This document shows positions 8,961-23,484 of a stretch of 36,858 nt of DNA, piece after piece. A program made the position numbers and the translations under genes. Numbering within the stretch: the stretch's first letter is position 1; each line of letters begins with the position of its first letter. Origin of the DNA: Oscillospiraceae bacterium (GTDB taxonomy: Bacteria; Bacillota; Clostridia; Oscillospirales; Ruminococcaceae); assembly GCA_017848125.1 (NCBI GenBank), contig JAGAJY010000258.1, forward strand, positions 1-36,858, read 5' to 3'. The notes under the pieces were generated by a model. That model saw nothing but the letters and a program-made list of their open reading frames with translations. It did not search any database and was not told where the DNA came from.

Positions 8961-9590
8961 ATGCTGTTATTCGGAAATAAAAAGAATACTCCCCCTGCAC
9001 CGTCTCCTGCTCCTGTTTCACCTGCTCCCGCAGGTCCTGTTGACGCAGATGATTTTTTCAAGGATATGGGCAGAAAGCCAAAGAGAAGAGATATTGACGT
9101 AAATATCGAATCTCCCGATATTGTTGGTCTGAGAGAAGAGCCCCTCCCCCCTCCCGGCAGCACTATCAAGAACATCAACTCCGTCAGCACCGACGACCTT
9201 GCAGACAAATCGGGCTTTGACGACAGCTTTATCCACGGTAATATCAAAACGGTAAATACTGAGGTAATTGATGTTGACAATGCTTTTGCTATGGAAAAGC
9301 AGCAGAAGGAAGCCAATGCCCTTGCGGCAACGGTAAACTCCCAGAATCCCGACGATTTCTTCAAGGACCTTGACAGAAAGAGAAACAGAGTAAAGGCTGA
9401 TATTGCCGTTCCCGAGGTTACGGGACTGAGAGAAGCCCCCGAGCCGCCTCCGATGATAAAGATACGAAACATCACCGATGTTGATACTGACGGGCTTATT
9501 GACAAGACCACCATTGTTGAGGAGGGTCTCGGAAATATTTCCGAAATCGACCTCAGTGCTATTGATACGGATATTCTTGGGGTGAAGTAA
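8961..9590 (+). CDS. Unrecognised acidic protein built from two copies of one ~80-residue unit
   Basis: The 209-residue product matches no family I recognise. After a short N-terminus (MLLFGNKKN) and a Pro/Ala-rich stretch (11-26) come two related units at about 30-109 and 131-208. Shared landmarks, in order, are DDFFKD (30-35, 131-136) and a basic patch (RKPKRR, 38-43; RKRNR, 139-143). These are followed by VGLREEPLPPP/TGLREAPEPPP (55-65, 154-164), IKNI/IRNI, VxTDxLxDK (75-83, 174-182) and GNI with an aspartate-rich tail. A glutamine/alanine linker at 110-130 joins them. There is no signal peptide or membrane segment, so it is probably cytosolic. The units could be short binding motifs in a disordered scaffold. 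It has its own promoter, an AAGGA SD and a hairpin after it, so it is likely monocistronic. Confidence 0.8.
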   Translation: MLLFGNKKNTPPAPSPAPVSPAPAGPVDADDFFKDMGRKPKRRDIDVNIESPDIVGLREEPLPPPGSTIKNINSVSTDDLADKSGFDDSFIHGNIKTVNTEVIDVDNAFAMEKQQKEANALAATVNSQNPDDFFKDLDRKRNRVKADIAVPEVTGLREAPEPPPMIKIRNITDVDTDGLIDKTTIVEEGLGNISEIDLSAIDTDILGVK

Positions 9591-9597
9591 AAAATAT

Positions 9598-9630
9598 GGG
9601 CAGCTGTGCAGATTTTCTGTACAGCTGCCC
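9598..9630 (+). terminator. Hairpin after the duplicated-unit gene, left flank of repeat copy 1
   Basis: Outer arms GGGCAGCTGT (9598-9607) and ACAGCTGCCC (9621-9630) are perfect. Inner pairs extend the stem to 15 bp with a TTT loop and one G-U wobble when read as plus-strand RNA. It starts 8 bp after the stop codon. Instead of a T-tract it is followed directly by the terminal repeat of the element at 9631. Confidence 0.7.
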
Positions 9631-9980
9631 CAGTCTGTCGATAAAGTGTATATATAAAAGAAGTTCCACAAATAACCACAAGGTAAAAGTTTCGGTCAAG
9701 CCTTTTCAAAGGCTTGCGGGATCTGAAACCAAAGGTTTCTGGGGCAGAGCCCCCGTCGCCCTCCGCAGAGGGCGAAATCTCCTTATTTCCGTGAAATAAC
9801 GGAGCAAGGGGTGAGAAATGCGACAGCATTTCGAGGGGAGGCGAACAAGACCGCCTCCCCTTCTTACAGTTCTATGCGAATTTACCCTTCAAAACGTTCC
9901 TGTGGAACGTTTTGAACACAGCTGATTTTAGGCAGTTTTTGTGCAAATTTAACAACAGTGTTTTCTTTTTCGACAAACTG
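9631..9980. repeat. Dispersed hairpin-rich repeat with terminal inverted repeats, copy 1
   Basis: This 350-bp element has a relative at 21762-22100. Its ends are imperfect inverted repeats: CAGTCTGTCGATAAAG at the left, and CAGTTTGTCGAAAAAG reading inward from the right (9980 to 9965), 14 of 16 matching. Inside is a string of hairpins. Arm pairs are AAGCCTTT/AAAGGCTT near 9699-9716, GGGGC/GCCCC (9741-9753), an 8-bp stem at 9756-9775, TTATTTC/GAAATAA (9783-9799) and GAAATGC/GCATTTC (9815-9832). The last two are a 9-bp stem at 9835-9860 and a 13-bp stem at 9888-9916. It has no credible coding capacity, so it resembles a non-autonomous mobile element (MITE) or a mobile structured RNA. It lies between convergent genes. 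Confidence 0.85.
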
Positions 9981-10013
9981 GGGCAACTATACAGATTTTC
10001 TGTACAGCTGCCC
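9981..10013 (-). terminator. Hairpin after the kinase gene, right flank of repeat copy 1
   Basis: This 33-bp hairpin is a near-copy of 9598-9630: 30 of 33 bases match, and all three differences are G in the left copy and A here. Read as minus-strand RNA, two of the changes become G-U wobbles and the third makes a full pair. It therefore folds for transcripts coming from the minus-strand kinase gene, which stops 15 bp away. Confidence 0.65.
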
Positions 10014-10028
10014 TGTTATTTTTACATA

Positions 10029-10970
10029 TCAGTAATTAAGCTCGCTTCCTCCGATAAACTCTCTTATCATTGAAGTGCTTGGAACATATTCGGACGAAAC
10101 CGTATCAAGCTCCTCAAGGAATCTGATAATTTCACCGCAGGCAGGAAATCTTTCAAGCTCGTTGTCCCTCTGCTCACAAAGCCCCTCAAGAAGAAAATCC
10201 TTGTAAACAGAAGCCTCGTATGCGATAAATGTATCAATATCGAAATCCGCACGCTTCTTGTAAGGGGTAATATAAAGATCCTCACCCCTTGAAACGCTGG
10301 AAAACATCTTGAAGCTTTCCTCGTATTTTCTCTTGCGAAACAGCTTGTCACGGCAGAGACGGCGCATAAGCCTTATCTGCCTTGGGTGGAGCAGACTGCC
10401 GTCCTTTGCTTTAAGCCTTGTGCGGACGGAAACGTACATACACATTGCAAAACTGCCTACATCACCCGTAACAGTGGGATTCAGGGCATGTATGCCCTCG
10501 ATAATGACTATCTCGTCCTTTTTTCTGCACATTTTCACCGAGCCACCCCTTGACTGTGTGGTGAAATCGAATCGGGGCATATCAAATTCCTCTGCCGCCG
10601 CAAGCTTTCTCAGATGGTCTGAAAACAGCGGAATATCAAGCCTGAGAGGAGATTCAAGGTCAATATTGCCCTCCTCGTCACGGGGAAGCTCCCTTGCGCT
10701 TTCCTCGGTTATGGGAAGAAAATAATTGTCCATAGAAAGAGTCATTGCCAGACGTCCCTGCTCCTTCAGGCATTTTTCAAGCCTGAGAGCGGCAGATGTC
10801 TTTCCCGAGCCCGAGGGACCCGAAAGCAGTATAACAGGCTTTTCGGAAAGTATCGCTCTCTGCGCCGCTTCTGCAATGTATGCGGAATAGTTATCCTCGG
10901 AAAGCTTGATAAAGCTCTCGGGGTTAGCCGCTTCTCTGTTTATTGATTTAACTGCTGCAAATTTTACCAT
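10029..10970 (-). CDS. Nucleoside/uridine kinase-like P-loop protein (stand-alone form)
   Basis: The ATG at 10970 follows AGAAAGGAGCG with 11 nt between. The upstream TTG at 10994 would overlap that SD, so it is not used here. The 313-residue protein has a Walker A motif LLSGPSGSGKTSAALRL, then TLSMDNYF, PRDEEGNIDLESPLRLDI, MPRFDF and IVIIEGIHALNP. This is the pattern of the phosphoribulokinase/uridine kinase family. It closely follows the C-terminal kinase half of the longer clostridial nucleoside kinases that also carry N-terminal TGS and threonyl-tRNA-synthetase-like domains. Those domains are missing here. The reaction expected is ATP-dependent phosphorylation of a nucleoside or small sugar-like substrate, but the substrate is unproven. 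It lies 42 bp downstream of the PHP phosphatase gene and probably forms an operon with it. Confidence 0.82.
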   Translation of the reverse strand: MVKFAAVKSINREAANPESFIKLSEDNYSAYIAEAAQRAILSEKPVILLSGPSGSGKTSAALRLEKCLKEQGRLAMTLSMDNYFLPITEESARELPRDEEGNIDLESPLRLDIPLFSDHLRKLAAAEEFDMPRFDFTTQSRGGSVKMCRKKDEIVIIEGIHALNPTVTGDVGSFAMCMYVSVRTRLKAKDGSLLHPRQIRLMRRLCRDKLFRKRKYEESFKMFSSVSRGEDLYITPYKKRADFDIDTFIAYEASVYKDFLLEGLCEQRDNELERFPACGEIIRFLEELDTVSSEYVPSTSMIREFIGGSELNY

Positions 10971-18422: not shown

Positions 18423-19022
18423 TCAGTTGTATCTCTTTACAAGAGCACCCAGACCGTCATCTGCCGTAGCCTGACCTACAGCGGAGAATTTCCATTCGCT
18501 GTTGTGACGGTAAAGCTCGCCGAATATCATAGATGTCATACCATTGTAGTTTTCGGAAAGATTGTAACGGCAAAGCTCCTGCTTGGAGTCCGAATCAACG
18601 ATTCTGATAAATGCGTTGTTTATCATACCGAAATCCTGTCTGCGAGCCTTTGCCTCGTAGATGTTAACCACAAAAATGATCTTGGAATACTCCGCAGGCA
18701 CGCTTGCAAGGTCAACAAATATCTGCTCGTCATCGCCCTCACCGGCACCTGTAAGGTTATCGCCCATATGCTTTATCGCACCCGATTTGTGAGTAAGATT
18801 GCCGAAATATACAAGGTCGCTCTTTCCTGCAAGCTTGTTTATGCTTTCTGTAATGATGATAGCCGAAGCGTCGCAGTCTATATCCTGACCGCCGCCGAAC
18901 AGACCGCCGAGCAATCCGCCTTTTTTTACCTCGTCCCAGCCAAGACCGACCATAACGTGCTTAAGACCGGGGTTGCCCTTTGTAAGGTCAATTTTCTGAC
19001 CCTTCTGAAGATTTACTGCCAT
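18423..19022 (-). CDS. TerD-family protein (second copy)
   Basis: The 199-residue protein begins [20 protein letters not shown] and continues MVGLGWD, the standard TerD opening. Calcium-binding acidic residues (DIDCDASAII) follow. Further on are the family landmarks [23 protein letters not shown] and RQDFGMINNAFIRIVD. TerD proteins are cytosolic Ca2+-binding beta-sandwich proteins linked to tellurite, phage and other stress resistance. Compared with the first TerD here (19995-20573) it has an extra glycine-rich insertion GGLLGGLFGGGQ in the first calcium loop. It is downstream of the AIM24 gene by 49 bp and likely in the same transcript. Confidence 0.95.
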   Translation of the reverse strand: MAVNLQKGQKIDLTKGNPGLKHVMVGLGWDEVKKGGLLGGLFGGGQDIDCDASAIIITESINKLAGKSDLVYFGNLTHKSGAIKHMGDNLTGAGEGDDEQIFVDLASVPAEYSKIIFVVNIYEAKARRQDFGMINNAFIRIVDSDSKQELCRYNLSENYNGMTSMIFGELYRHNSEWKFSAVGQATADDGLGALVKRYN

Positions 19023-19071
19023 TTTATTTTAACCGTCCTTTCAGAAATAAATATGTATGTAATTATTATAA

Positions 19072-19899
19072 TCAGGTTGCCGCCGAAGTTACTGTCGAAT
19101 AGGGTGACAGAAGCATAGATTCGTAAACCTTGATAGTAGGAGCAAGCCACACCTGACCCGTACCTCTGTAAACATTCACAAGTCCCTCGCCGCTTACTGC
19201 CGAGCCAATAAGAGTCTTTGCGGAGCGCTCAACGGTAAACTCGATATTGCCTGTTCTCAGAACAGCAAAATTTCCGTCAACCTTGAGTGTGTCATTCTCC
19301 ATTTCAACAATGTCTATCTCGCACATAGGAACAGCACATTCAAGAACAACAAGCCCCGGACCTTTGATAGAGGTCTGGAAAATACCCTCGCCGCCAAGAG
19401 CCGCAGAGGAAATATTTCTCTGCATATATGCGCTTACGTTTGCGCTTCCCTGAGCCGCAAAGAACATACCCTTGTCAACAATGATCTCCTCGCCTGCCTG
19501 AAGCTCCAGCGTAATAAGATGCTTGAATGTAGGCTCAAGCACCACAAGACCCGTGCCTCTGTACTCGGGCTGAGCAGTCGCCTCACCTGTTACAGCGCCT
19601 GTGAACATTCTTCCCAGAAGATTTCCGGGAGTAACGCCCGAAACCATTTCAAGATTGCCCTTGAAATAGCTCATAGCCCCCGGCTCGACCTTAACAGCGT
19701 CATTTGTAAGGTAGATAGCCGCCTGACGTACTCTCATATTCTGCTTTTCCATATGACTGAGCATTTCAGCTGCATATGGATTTCTGCCGCCAAGAAGCTT
19801 CTGATATTCGAGTATCTCGATCTTCATATTCTTGTTGACGCTTGTATCAATGACCTTGATATTTTCTCTTGTACCTATCGCCGACAGATTCAATACCAT
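19072..19899 (-). CDS. AIM24-family beta-barrel-like protein (TIGR00266 type)
   Basis: The ATG at 19899 is taken as the start. The SD AAAGGA is only 3 nt away, and TTG at 19893 would give a more usual 9-nt gap, so the first residues are uncertain. The roughly 275-residue product matches the AIM24/TIGR00266 family by its repeated beta-strand pattern. Landmarks are AAIYLTNDAVKVEPGAMSYF near 60-80, YRGTGLVVLEPTFKHL, GGEGIFQTSIKGPGLVVLE, TVERSAK and VNVYRGTGQVWLAP near the C-terminus. The molecular role of bacterial members is unknown, but they recur beside terD genes. Here the gene lies between two terD genes in one operon, which supports a joint stress function. Confidence 0.88.
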   Translation of the reverse strand: MVLNLSAIGTRENIKVIDTSVNKNMKIEILEYQKLLGGRNPYAAEMLSHMEKQNMRVRQAAIYLTNDAVKVEPGAMSYFKGNLEMVSGVTPGNLLGRMFTGAVTGEATAQPEYRGTGLVVLEPTFKHLITLELQAGEEIIVDKGMFFAAQGSANVSAYMQRNISSAALGGEGIFQTSIKGPGLVVLECAVPMCEIDIVEMENDTLKVDGNFAVLRTGNIEFTVERSAKTLIGSAVSGEGLVNVYRGTGQVWLAPTIKVYESMLLSPYSTVTSAAT

Positions 19900-19927
19900 C
19901 AATCCTTTCGTATCTTTATCCGAAACA

Positions 19928-19964
19928 AGGCAGAGCCTCCCGAAGCCTCAGGAAGCTTCTGCCT
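19928..19964 (-). terminator. Imperfect stem-loop between the first terD and the AIM24 gene
   Basis: AGGCAGA (19928-19934) pairs with TCTGCCT (19958-19964), with inner GAAGC/GCTTC pairing. The minus-strand tail TTGTTT is weak. It may be a partial terminator or an mRNA-stabilising element. Confidence 0.4.
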
Positions 19965-19994
19965 GTCGTTGATTTTCCGTTATTTTCACACAAA

Positions 19995-20573
19995 TCAGAC
20001 ATTAACTCCGTACTGTAAGCAAAGTGCTCTTAGACCGCCGTTGAAGCCGCTGCCGATGGCATTGAACTTCCACTCGCCGTTATGTCTGTAAAGCTCGCCT
20101 ACAACTACAGCTGTTTCAATAGAGAAATCCTCGCCGAGGTCGAATCTGATAAGCTCGCTGTTTGTTACATCATCAACGATTCTGATAAATGAGTTTGAAA
20201 CCTGACCGAAGTTCTGCTTACGCTCCTCAGCCTCGTATATGGTTACAGTGAAGGCAATTTTCGATACGCCTGCGGGAACTTTTGAAAGGTCGATGAGGAT
20301 CTGCTCATCATCGCCCTCGCCCTCACCTGTAAGGTTATCGCCCTGATGGATAACCGATTCGCTTGCATGAGAAAGATTTCCGTAGAATACGAAATCGCTG
20401 TCCGAAGCAACCTTGCCGTTCTCAGCAAGAAGGAATGCACAGGCGTCGAGATCGAAATCCGCACCGTTATCATACTGATTAACGTCCCAGCCGAGACCAA
20501 CCATTATCTTTTTAAGACCGGGATTACCCTTTGTCAGATCAACCTTCTGACCCTTCTGTAAGCTTACAGGCAT
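19995..20573 (-). CDS. TerD-family protein (first gene of the Ter operon)
   Basis: The ATG at 20573 is chosen because GGAGG sits 9 nt upstream and the product then starts [20 protein letters not shown], the family norm. The frame runs seven codons further upstream without support. The 192-residue protein keeps the TerD calcium-binding acidic cluster ([14 protein letters not shown]), [36 protein letters not shown] and the [16 protein letters not shown]-terminal motif. It lacks the glycine insertion of the second TerD. As the promoter-proximal gene it should be the most strongly expressed of the operon. Confidence 0.95.
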
Positions 20574-20607
20574 ATTAAACAACCTCCATAACAAAATATC
20601 TTTTCGA

Positions 20608-20779: not shown

Positions 20780-20870
20780 CCATACAGAGAATATCCGAAA
20801 AGAAAAAACAGCCTCGGAAATTCCCCCATTGGTGTATTTCACCGTTTATATTGAAAGGAAGGTAAATTCT

Positions 20871-21629
20871 ATGAAAAAATTCTTCAAGGGAACTCTTTCG
20901 GGAAAAAGCACAGCCACAATAATCTGCTTCTGTCTTGCGGCAGTAATGGCGCTGGGCATTTTCACCTACAACAAGGCGGAAGATGAACTGACAGGCGAGC
21001 TTACAGGAGTAAAGAACGGTACATCGGGCACACTTCCCATAGCTCAGACCGAGCCTGCCGAGGAAGCGAACATCGCCGCTGAAAACGTGCCTGTTGAACC
21101 TGCACAGCCTGCTGACGCACCTCAGGAAACCGTTATTCTGGAGCAGGACGCTTTCGGCACACCCGAATCAGGTGAAAACGCAGCAGCCGAGCCTGTTTCC
21201 GTCGAATTTACAGGAGCTTCCGTAAGCCCCGTAAACGGCAGTATCATTTCCGATTATTCCGACGGAGAGCTTGTAAAGTCCAAGACACTCAGCGTATGGA
21301 AAACCCACGACGGCATTGACATTTCCGCAGAAACAGGCACAGCTGTAAGATCAGCGGCGGCAGGAACAGTAAGCTCTGTCACCGATGACGCTATGATGGG
21401 CGTGACAGTGGTAATCGACCACGGCAGCGGCTATGAGAGCTACTACTGCAATCTTGCCTATGACGTACCCGTAAGCGAGGGCGACAGCGTAAGTGCAGGC
21501 ACAGTTATCGGAGAGGTAGGCACGACCGCCGAGGCTGAAATATCCGAGGAGTCTCATCTTCACTTCGGCGTAAAGCATAACGGTCAGTGGACAGATCCTG
21601 CGGATATGCTTTCGGGCGAAGGCTCATAA
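20871..21629 (+). CDS. Membrane-anchored M23 (LytM-type) peptidase, SpoIIQ-like
   Basis: The ATG at 20871 follows GAAAGGAAGG. Codons upstream in the same frame (from 20829) have no SD. The 252-residue protein has a single N-terminal membrane anchor at about 14-32, a Glu/Ala/Pro-rich spacer to about 115 and an M23 domain at about 118-248. The zinc ligands of LytM-type endopeptidases are all present: H146 and D150 in THDGID, and H229 and H231 in SHLHFG. It could therefore be an active peptidoglycan endopeptidase outside the membrane. Domain order and size match SpoIIQ, the forespore protein that forms a channel with SpoIIIAH, and a sigma-F-like promoter is visible. A vegetative cell-wall hydrolase is the alternative. 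Confidence 0.85.
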   Translation: MKKFFKGTLSGKSTATIICFCLAAVMALGIFTYNKAEDELTGELTGVKNGTSGTLPIAQTEPAEEANIAAENVPVEPAQPADAPQETVILEQDAFGTPESGENAAAEPVSVEFTGASVSPVNGSIISDYSDGELVKSKTLSVWKTHDGIDISAETGTAVRSAAAGTVSSVTDDAMMGVTVVIDHGSGYESYYCNLAYDVPVSEGDSVSAGTVIGEVGTTAEAEISEESHLHFGVKHNGQWTDPADMLSGEGS

Positions 21630-21715: not shown

Positions 21716-21732
21716 ATAAACAGAGATAATAA

Positions 21733-21760
21733 GCGGTATCGGAAAATCCTCCGATACCGC
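21733..21760 (+). terminator. Hairpin at the left flank of repeat copy 2
   Basis: GCGGTATCGGA (21733-21743) and TCCGATACCGC (21750-21760) form a perfect 11-bp stem with a 6-nt loop. It is about 100 bp after the M23 gene and is followed directly by TCAGTCTGTCG, the end of the element, rather than a T-tract. Confidence 0.6.
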
Positions 21761-21761
21761 T

Positions 21762-22100
21762 CAGTCTGTCGATAAAGTTCACTAACGAAAAAAGTTGCAC
21801 AAATAAACACAAGGCAAAAGTTTCGGTCAAGCCTTTTCAAAGGCTTGCGGGTTTCCAAAGGGCAGAGCCCTTTGGTCGCTGTCCGCAGACAGCGAAAGCC
21901 CCTTATTTCCGTGAAATAACGGAGCAAGGGGTGAGAAATGCGACAGCATTTCGAGGGGAGGCGAACACGACCGCCTCCCCTTCTAACAGTTCTCTGTAAA
22001 TTAACCCTTCAAAACGTTCCGGTGGAACGTTTTGAACATAACTTGTTTTTTGCAGCTTTTGTGCAAATTTAACAGCAGCGTTTTCTTTTTCGACACGCTG
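21762..22100. repeat. Dispersed hairpin-rich repeat with terminal inverted repeats, copy 2
   Basis: This is the 339-bp partner of 9631-9980, in the same orientation. The last 200 bp align without gaps (about 18 differences counted by eye), and the first 90 bp also align without gaps. The middle is 11 bp shorter and differs most. Its ends are CAGTCTGTCGATAAAG and, inward from the right, CAGCGTGTCGAAAAAG (13 of 16). The middle holds CCAAAGGGC/GCCCTTTGG (21855-21875, loop AGA) and TCGCTGTC/GACAGCGA (21876-21895, loop CGCA). Stems equivalent to those of copy 1 follow. Like copy 1 it lies between convergent genes. Confidence 0.85.
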
Positions 22101-22137
22101 AAATGCTTTCACACCCAAAACAAGTGTGAAAGCATTT
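22101..22137 (-). terminator. Hairpin at the right flank of repeat copy 2
   Basis: AAATGCTTTCACAC (22101-22114) and GTGTGAAAGCATTT (22124-22137) form a perfect 14-bp stem, 6 bp beyond the stop of the minus-strand membrane-protein gene and directly against the end of the element. Confidence 0.7.
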
Positions 22138-22545: not shown

Positions 22546-23484
22546 TCATTTCCTGTAGTTGATGCCCTGAAAGCTGTTTTCACGGGCAAAGGTCTTGTCA
22601 ATTTCATTCATAACGGTAAATTTTTTCAAGCTCCATTCGGGAGCGAGAAGGGTGTCCCGTCCTCCGTCCCCCGTAACACGCTGAATAATAAGTTCGGGAG
22701 GAAAAAGCTTTATCTGCTCGCAGACGATATGAACATATTCCTCCAGGGTCAGCGGTGTTATCTCCCCCCGCAGGTACTGTCCGCCCATGACCGTGCCTTT
22801 CAGAATGTGCAGCAGATGAAGCTTTATGCTGTGCAGAGGAAGCTTTGCCATTTCCTCCGCAGAATACAGCATCATATCAGAATCCTCGTCGGGAAGTCCG
22901 TTTATCAGATGAACGCATACATTTATATTCCGTGCAAAAAGCCGCTCACAGCACACAAGAAAATCCCTGTAGGTGTGACAGCGGTTGATCCTTTCCGCAG
23001 TCCTGTCATGAACAGTCTGCAGCCCCAGCTCCACAGTAAGATATGTGCGGTCATTCAGCTCGGTCAGAATGTCCAGAATATCATCGCTTATGCAGTCGGG
23101 ACGGGTAGAAACCGCCAGCCCCACAGCATTTTCAAGCCCCAGCGCTTCATCAGTCAGCTGTCGGAAACGCTCGGGCGATGTGTAGGTGTTTGTTCCTGCC
23201 TGAAAATAGGGAATATAAAGCCCCTCGCTCCATTTTCTGCTCATCTGCCGCTTAACAGCCTCAAACTGCTCGGAAACGCTTAAAAGCGGAGAGCCTGCAA
23301 ATTCGCCGCTGCCCTCAAGGCAGTATGTACAGCCGCCGACGCCCTTTGTTCCGTCAATATTCGGGCAGGTGAAGCCGCAGTTCAGGGAAATTTTAATGAC
23401 CTTGCAGCCGAATCTTTTTTTCAGATAATAGCTCTGGGTGTGGTATCTCTTGTTTGAATCCGAATAGGGAAACGGGGACAGCAT
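22546..23484 (-). CDS. Radical SAM protein of the YhcC/YtqA (TIGR01212) family
   Basis: The 312-residue protein has the family signature KISLNCGFTCPNIDGTKG followed by GGCTYC. The three cysteines that bind the [4Fe-4S] cluster used for S-adenosylmethionine cleavage lie at CxxxxxxxxxxCxxC-type spacing near residues 39-53. Other landmarks are YFQAGTNTYTSPERF, VGLAVSTRPDCI, VELGLQTVHD and LINGLPDE. Members of this group resemble the radical SAM half of Elp3 and are often linked to tRNA or Fe-S metabolism, but their substrate is not established. The start follows AGAAAGGG. Transcription probably begins near 23547 from a consensus promoter that faces the esterase gene. Confidence 0.92.
   Translation of the reverse strand: MLSPFPYSDSNKRYHTQSYYLKKRFGCKVIKISLNCGFTCPNIDGTKGVGGCTYCLEGSGEFAGSPLLSVSEQFEAVKRQMSRKWSEGLYIPYFQAGTNTYTSPERFRQLTDEALGLENAVGLAVSTRPDCISDDILDILTELNDRTYLTVELGLQTVHDRTAERINRCHTYRDFLVCCERLFARNINVCVHLINGLPDEDSDMMLYSAEEMAKLPLHSIKLHLLHILKGTVMGGQYLRGEITPLTLEEYVHIVCEQIKLFPPELIIQRVTGDGGRDTLLAPEWSLKKFTVMNEIDKTFARENSFQGINYRK

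Follow-up and report, generated by a model that had tools for sequence, protein, structure and literature searches.

A candidate IS1182-family MITE that carries a chain of hairpins and lies between duplicated terminator-like hairpins in a Ruminococcaceae genome

Two copies of a small transposon without genes, each holding a chain of folded hairpins, are present in the window, by which we mean the whole 36,858-nucleotide stretch of DNA analysed here. The element is very probably a non-autonomous MITE with IS1182-family ends that was joined to terminator hairpins by a transposase acting in trans, the hairpin being duplicated on both sides. The ends are shared, the targets are hairpins, these hairpins occur as direct repeats around the element, and relatives carry element-free sites. 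The feature that explains the element, and that had been overlooked earlier, is the pair of near-identical 33-bp hairpins abutting copy 1: the 33-bp palindrome is found on both flanks, with 30 of the 33 bases identical (91%).

Results

The sequence-only reading had described a two-copy element at 9631-9980 and 21762-22100, and these coordinates proved to be exact (Table 1). Both copies are located between two convergent reading frames each. The right part, said to be 200 bp long and about 91% identical, is shared as claimed, with a slightly lower identity of 89% over 226 nt, while the left 90 nt of the two copies are 88% identical. The common end CAGTYTGTCGAWAAAG, which had been given for both copies, fits three ends; the fourth, on the right of copy 2, reads CAGCGTGTCGAAAAAG. 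The reading frames over the two copies are only mechanical ones that enter from outside, and by eye there is no transposase gene inside.

Table 1. Positions of the two element copies, their ends, the abutting hairpins and the hairpins of the chain in the window
Feature	Position	Strand	Remarks
MITE copy 1	9631..9980	+	350 bp
MITE copy 2	21762..22100	+	339 bp
Left terminal inverted repeat, copy 1	9631..9646	+	CAGTCTGTCGATAAAG
Right terminal inverted repeat, copy 1	9965..9980	-	CAGTTTGTCGAAAAAG
Left terminal inverted repeat, copy 2	21762..21777	+	
Right terminal inverted repeat, copy 2	22085..22100	-	CAGCGTGTCGAAAAAG
Left copy of target hairpin (terminator-like palindrome)	9598..9630	.	direct repeat of 9981-10013
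Right copy of target hairpin	9981..10013	.	direct repeat of 9598..9630
Hairpin abutting the left end of copy 2	21732..21761	.	partner adjoins a right end on contig C81 (L021)
Hairpin abutting the right end of copy 2	22101..22137	.	partner adjoins a left end on contig C300 (L085)
Hairpin H1	9697..9716	+	CAAGCCTTTTCAAAGGCTTG
Extra hairpin	9725..9739	+	GAAACCAAAGGTTTC; in some copies only
Hairpin H2	9741..9753	+	GGGGCAGAGCCCC; replaced by CCAAAGGGCAGAGCCCTTTGG in other copies
Hairpin H3	9756..9775	+	TCGCCCTCCGCAGAGGGCGA; covarying, CCC/CTG/CCG classes
Hairpin H4	9779..9811	+	5' arm C to T opposite nearly invariant GGGG
Hairpin H5	9815..9832	+	GAAATGCGACAGCATTTC
Hairpin H6	9835..9860	+	GGGGAGGCG...CGCCTCCCC; covarying
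Hairpin H7	9888..9916	+	TTCAAAACGTTCC...GGAACGTTTTGAA; covarying

The ends are kept beyond the two copies in the window, since the pattern CAGNCTGTCNANAAAG, which is related to the ends of the copies, gave 75 matches with 1 mismatch in the genome from which the window comes (G000; 3.44 Mb in 340 contigs), compared with 14 for a control in which the same pattern was reversed. In this genome there were 40 scored matches to the element among 73 candidates, some of which are halves of one insertion on separate contigs; many of the matches lie at contig ends, as expected of a repeat in a short-read assembly, and one match can therefore represent half an insertion. We typed 28 left and 32 right ends in G000, and matches were also present in 7 of the 19 other congeners, part of them short or without ends. 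The idea that these copies belong to a MITE family was borne out, in that the element is multicopy and its 16-bp ends, CAGNNTGTCGAWAAAG, are common to an IS1182-family insertion sequence (IS). It also has the features of a MITE in being short, multicopy and intergenic and in having no transposase gene; judged by the shared terminal inverted repeats, it is a MITE of the IS1182 family.

Among named public genomes, an exact 30-base core of the element was found in 17 stretches, all of them from MAGs, which are titled Ruminococcus sp., Oscillospiraceae or Clostridia bacterium and several of which come from the gut of goat or water deer. Plasmids yielded no usable match and a scan of viral contigs with the core as query yielded none; in a phage search, one unannotated record matched 19% of the query.

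Some smaller structures were observed alongside. A minimal element of 58 bp (L071:1960-2017, corresponding to G000:C150:8959-9016) consists of two CAGTCTGTCCAAAAAG ends around one hairpin and lies between palindromes. A second short MITE, about 130-170 bp long and with ends of this kind, occurs in L108 near 1350-1516 (G014:C9), in L073 near 2130-2280 (G000:C170) and in the flank of L056; by eye, the one in L108 seemingly contains a short open frame that continues past the end and into the flanking DNA. L081 was rejected as a copy: an end and the adjoining palindrome are present, but the interior is unrelated to the element. Elsewhere in the window (18423-20594), two homologous 199-aa minus-strand frames, which we take to be TerD-like and which are separated by one other frame, show up as direct repeats of 73-79% identity.

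We analyzed the sites abutted by the ends with a hairpin score defined as stem length minus 3 per mismatch. The end set comprised 116 ends, and a loose filter classed the interior of 102 of them as element-like. Of these 102 ends, 75 abutted a hairpin with a score of 7 or more, compared with 2.9% of 1500 random sites, and several of the 27 sub-threshold ends appear to be chance matches within coding sequence. The 8 nt outside the hairpin foot contained at least four A at 57 of the 75 ends, against a background of 16.9%; this A-rich stretch is a T-run for outgoing transcription, and the targets are therefore most likely intrinsic terminators. The earlier suggestion of a terminator or insulator module accordingly holds as regards the target, as the element lies between duplicated terminator-like hairpins.

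Left and right ends were also compared with each other irrespective of contig, using a typed subset of 38 left and 44 right ends from which 10 ends classed as IS were excluded; two of the 44 right ends are atypical, that of L167 being a chance match within a transposase gene and that of L046 belonging to the 58-bp kind. A direct repeat of 17-39 bp was common to both ends in 25 of the resulting 1672 pairings, and in nearly every matched pairing this repeat is the whole hairpin, the sequence of which differs from insertion to insertion. Ten matched pairings are inside one locus and 15 are across two loci, the latter mostly representing two contig ends with the halves of one insertion. A hairpin thus stands on both sides in the 25 matched pairs, which is not the outcome of stem-loop deletion of the IS1272 type. 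When the comparison was confined to the 15 loci with both MITE ends typed, 10 were matched and 5 (L004, L023, L008, L060 and L124) were unmatched. L004 is copy 2, with discordant flanking hairpins; in L023, by eye, the stem is common to both flanks and the loop is changed; L008, also by eye, has only the 8-bp repeat ATATAATT; and in L060 and L124 the left and right flanks differ, so that these two, as well as L008, are exceptions to the direct-repeat pattern.

Congeners provided sites without the element. No element was found beside the orthologue of the kinase gene adjacent to copy 1 in any of six congeners, one of which (L212) shows only about 140 bases there. A single hairpin follows the kinase stop in four of them (L212-L215), and in L213 and L215 the convergent order of the kinase gene and dnaJ is kept with a single hairpin between the two. 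These two loci are the best empty sites, though in the window an additional small frame separates dnaJ from the element. Other neighbours are found at the kinase orthologue in L214, L216 and L217.

A search for IS1182 transposases (NF033551) in 148 genomes drawn from the family gave matches in 39, which were above the cut-off in 5. Three family-level relatives contain complete IS1182-family elements (L163, 1583 bp; L164, 1510 bp; L165, 1562 bp) with ends of the form CAG[CT][CT]TGT[CA]GAA, namely CAGCCTGTAGAAAA/CAGCCTGTCGAAAA in L163, CAGTCTGTCGAAAA/CAGTCTGTCGAATA in L164 and CAGCTTGTAGAAAA/CAGCCTGTCGAAAA in L165. Identical direct repeats border each element (29 bp in L163, 31 bp in L164 and 39 bp in L165), and all of them are palindromes that can form hairpins, with one mismatch in the case of L163. 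A full-length relative with a transposase and the same ends, which the sequence-only reading had envisaged, is thus found in the IS1182 family, in the form of these three complete elements. The fourth element above the cut-off (L166) has such ends, but its flanking hairpins are unequal and there are stops within its frame; in the fifth (L167), such ends were not found.

In the genus of the window, the IS ends consist of CAGTCTGTCGAAAAAG followed by a terminator-like hairpin, a TATAAT box and the open frame MLEKNKSERDQLEFVCLETMV. The end CAGTCTGTCGAAAAAG itself occurs at IS ends in G000, G009 and G015 and also forms the left end of the complete G111 IS, while in G027 and G044 one-base variants of it are found at the right ends and the left ends differ more. 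The frame MLEKNKSERDQLEFVCLETMV is present at two loci in G009, cut by the contig end, and G000 has two IS ends with MLQKDKKERN, one of them cut by the contig end and the other soon stopped. Against the transposases of L163, L164 and L165, the 21-residue peptide MLEKNKSERDQLEFVCLETMV scored 62, 44 and 62, respectively, and the maxima over 1000 shuffles for each comparison were 35, 37 and 46; the L164 match alone (44 versus 37) would therefore be weak. Of the IS in the genus we found only ends and about 20 transposase residues, and none of the 20 genus genomes yielded an IS1182 transposase body associated with such ends; the multicopy IS bodies are probably unassembled. The PF13751 profile had no match in G000, and the L164 transposase as query gave only weak matches of 25-26% in the genus genomes, in two of them.

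Several candidates for the partner IS were rejected. The PF13751 matches in four congeners were followed up by way of their ends, none of which fitted. The NF033551 matches of G000 are weak and below the cut-off (best 79 bits; contigs C305, C229 and C45); no pair of these ends occurs in any of the three regions, and the top-scoring match is an IS5-family transposase. L075, considered as a complete IS, is only an IS end with a short reading frame that soon stops; the gene beside it is presumably ptsI.

Copy 2 (window 21732-22137) joins two different target hairpins. It lies between frames 20829-21629 on the left, which we take to be M23-like, and 22546-23484 on the right, presumably radical-SAM-like. 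The orthologues of these two genes are on separate contigs in all five congeners with clear orthologues of both, and in G011 the left-gene orthologue is followed by 12 kb of contig without the right-gene orthologue. Copy 2 therefore reflects either recombination between two copies or an assembly that crossed between them, and the gene order to the right of 21762 relative to the left should not be trusted. The different hairpins and the separated neighbours could also be taken to mean that homologous recombination moved terminator-flanked blocks at large, the flanking hairpins being local duplications and not target-site duplications. We consider this very improbable, given the 25 matching left and right pairs with their differing hairpin sequences and the same pattern around the three complete IS1182 elements.

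The paired stem changes inside the element are genuine. The changes of TCGCCCTC/GAGGGCGA to TCGCTGTC/GACAGCGA around a CGCA loop and of GGGGC/GCCCC to AGGGC/GCCCT around an AGA loop are as had been described, and over 29 aligned copies the variation of the stems is mostly compensated, so that the changes withstand the refuting condition named in the sequence-only reading, stems that vary without compensation. This alignment (A1) holds 29 of 101 copies, the latter being 115 BLAST regions minus identical or contained ones, with 15 copies from G000, 5 from G008, 2 from G011, 4 from G014 and 3 from G015, and its seven-hairpin structure was taken from window copy 2. Standard pairs made up 95.8% of 1657 cells, compared with 91.0% in shuffled alignments and 38.3-54.6% when the partners were slid; 14 pairs were changed on both sides (8.8 when shuffled), as were 85 cells (29.3 when shuffled), and the covariation score was 0.168 (0.087 when shuffled). 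The further pair types were less striking, at 31 versus 28.4, a number that 27 of 500 shuffles reached. Strand bias, which would speak for RNA, was strong only in H4, with 19 G-T cells on the + strand and no A-C cells; over the stems except H2 there were 30 G-T versus 19 A-C cells, and the pair positions numbered 9 versus 5 (p=0.42). Entire arms and cassettes are swapped between copies, and mosaic copies break a stem (L025). A long-range helix proposed by RNAalifold, GTTTCG/CGGAGC, was discarded as evidence since it never varies.

The sequence-only reading took such changes to suggest selection on an RNA or cruciform fold, which these data do not establish, since the strand bias outside H2 is of the size just given and template switching or recombination could also keep the pairing. 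The proposal that the chain is a functional structured RNA that keeps its stems paired, with the IS1182 ends only as a vehicle, would account for the excess of pairing and covariation over the shuffled and slid controls, for the near-invariant loops and joints across species, for the purely G-T character of the 19 wobble-type cells of H4 and for the related chains without these ends in other congeners. We nevertheless find it somewhat doubtful, because related sequences may beat shuffles without any structure and because the structure was derived from one of the aligned copies, which gives it an advantage over the slid versions; in addition, the further pair types barely exceed the shuffles, and whole-stem exchanges, together with mosaics that break a stem (L025, for example), point to recombination among the copies. 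A search of Rfam with the whole window likewise gave no match above the gathering score, and in E-value mode 9580-10030 gave 8 matches, all far below their gathering scores. It is possible, at a little less than even weight, that the paired changes come instead from DNA processes, such as template switching at quasi-palindromes and gene conversion, in a selfish MITE without RNA function. This would fit the rarity of one-sided intermediates at most of the doubly changed pairs, the change of arms as wholes (TCGCCC to TCGCTG with GGG to CAG, and the H2 cassettes) and the existence of mosaic copies; alone, however, it leaves the near-invariant interspecies loops and joints and the one-sided bias of H4 unexplained.

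Many copies of the core in G014, G015, G007 and G013 are without such ends, and the IS1182 ends are therefore not the whole story of the hairpin chain. By eye, several core copies of G015 have a common right boundary near GACAAAGCAACTCCCCCGAGCT, and in G007 and G013 a longer related chain, aligned from seven places, has the sharp boundaries CCAAAAGGTAAAAGTTTCG ... GGCGCATTG. Several of these longer chains begin shortly 3' of an apparent, putative stop codon, and that of L058 is in the opposite orientation, before a gene that we take to be atpD. The occurrence of chains without IS1182 ends makes the chain older or wider than its IS1182 packaging.

Two further observations were made on these chains. 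The longer ones of G007 and G013 (L058, L064, L065, L145 and L156-L158) lie in intergenic DNA and have no IS1182 ends; some are apparently at orthologous sites in the two species, and paired stem changes occur there too. In addition, a sequence of about 95 bp (CTTCCCTCTGCGTACCC and surroundings) without IS1182 ends is nested in H2 in L068 near 85-190 (G008) and in L057 near 1750-1860 (G013).

Discussion

The family described here is real and well defined. It is explained by a transposase family that is already known, here with a variant outcome, and its cargo is unusual. We propose that an IS1182-family transposase, presumably supplied in trans, would bind the 16-bp inverted repeats and join the element to a palindrome able to form a hairpin, in most cases an intergenic intrinsic terminator. 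The palindrome may be extruded as a cruciform. The two strand transfers would take place at its two 5' feet, so that gap repair would leave a complete hairpin on either side of the element, in the form of direct repeats of about 17-39 bp. At the near hairpin of each gene, the element would now stand in place of the T-run, so that transcripts would probably pass through the hairpin chain and end at the far hairpin copy. This would make the chain a segment of the 3' UTR, and paired stems could be under selection there.

A terminator may be a near-harmless niche for such an element because the end signal is kept on both sides, and a mobile hairpin chain as part of mRNA 3' ends across a genome raises a testable question. 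In a more far-reaching version, which we regard as unlikely, the chain would be a portable structured RNA cassette that is carried within IS1182 ends in some Ruminococcus-group species and stands without them between genes in others, where present the IS1182 ends putting it between terminator copies and so appending it to the 3' UTR of the upstream gene. If this were true, the mobile element would serve to disperse a common 3'-UTR structure, the stems of which diversify while pairing is kept.

The reading that we favour, a non-autonomous MITE joined to terminator hairpins, places the element next to the insertion sequences of the IS1182 family (NF033551), which it resembles in its ends, its palindromic targets and its direct repeats of a whole palindrome, as seen in the three complete relatives. 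Unlike them, it is about 350 bp long, has no transposase and carries a hairpin chain. Members of this family are TnSha1 and IS1272 of staphylococci, which are reported to insert into stem-loops, some of them confirmed terminators, and to delete all or part of the stem-loop (PMC4923244, PMC5678879). Their insertion is directed by structure, at hairpins including terminators and without a sequence consensus (PMC4923244, PMC5678879), as is the case for the element. The difference lies in the outcome: IS1272 deletes or replaces the stem-loop (PMC5678879), whereas the element duplicates it. In 2017 Wan et al. also drew a pathway b, in which strand joining at the 5' feet would yield two copies of the whole stem-loop (PMC5678879), and the elements here repeatedly show the product expected of that pathway. 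They thus constitute numerous natural cases of a whole terminator hairpin being duplicated by an IS1182-type pair of ends, an outcome drawn as hypothetical in that paper (PMC5678879).

Among small structured repeats, QMITE, BOX, RUP, SPRITE and ERIC, as covered in the sections available of a review (PMC10969869), are like the element in being small, mostly non-coding, intergenic and rich in hairpins; unlike these, as far as those sections describe them (PMC10969869), the element has IS1182-type ends. The word IS1182 is absent from the review, and hairpin duplication from those sections (PMC10969869); no IS1182-derived MITE with hairpin duplication was found in searches of open-licence papers. 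The targeting of palindromes by IS1182 is known; the duplication of the whole hairpin and the hairpin chain as cargo are probably new.
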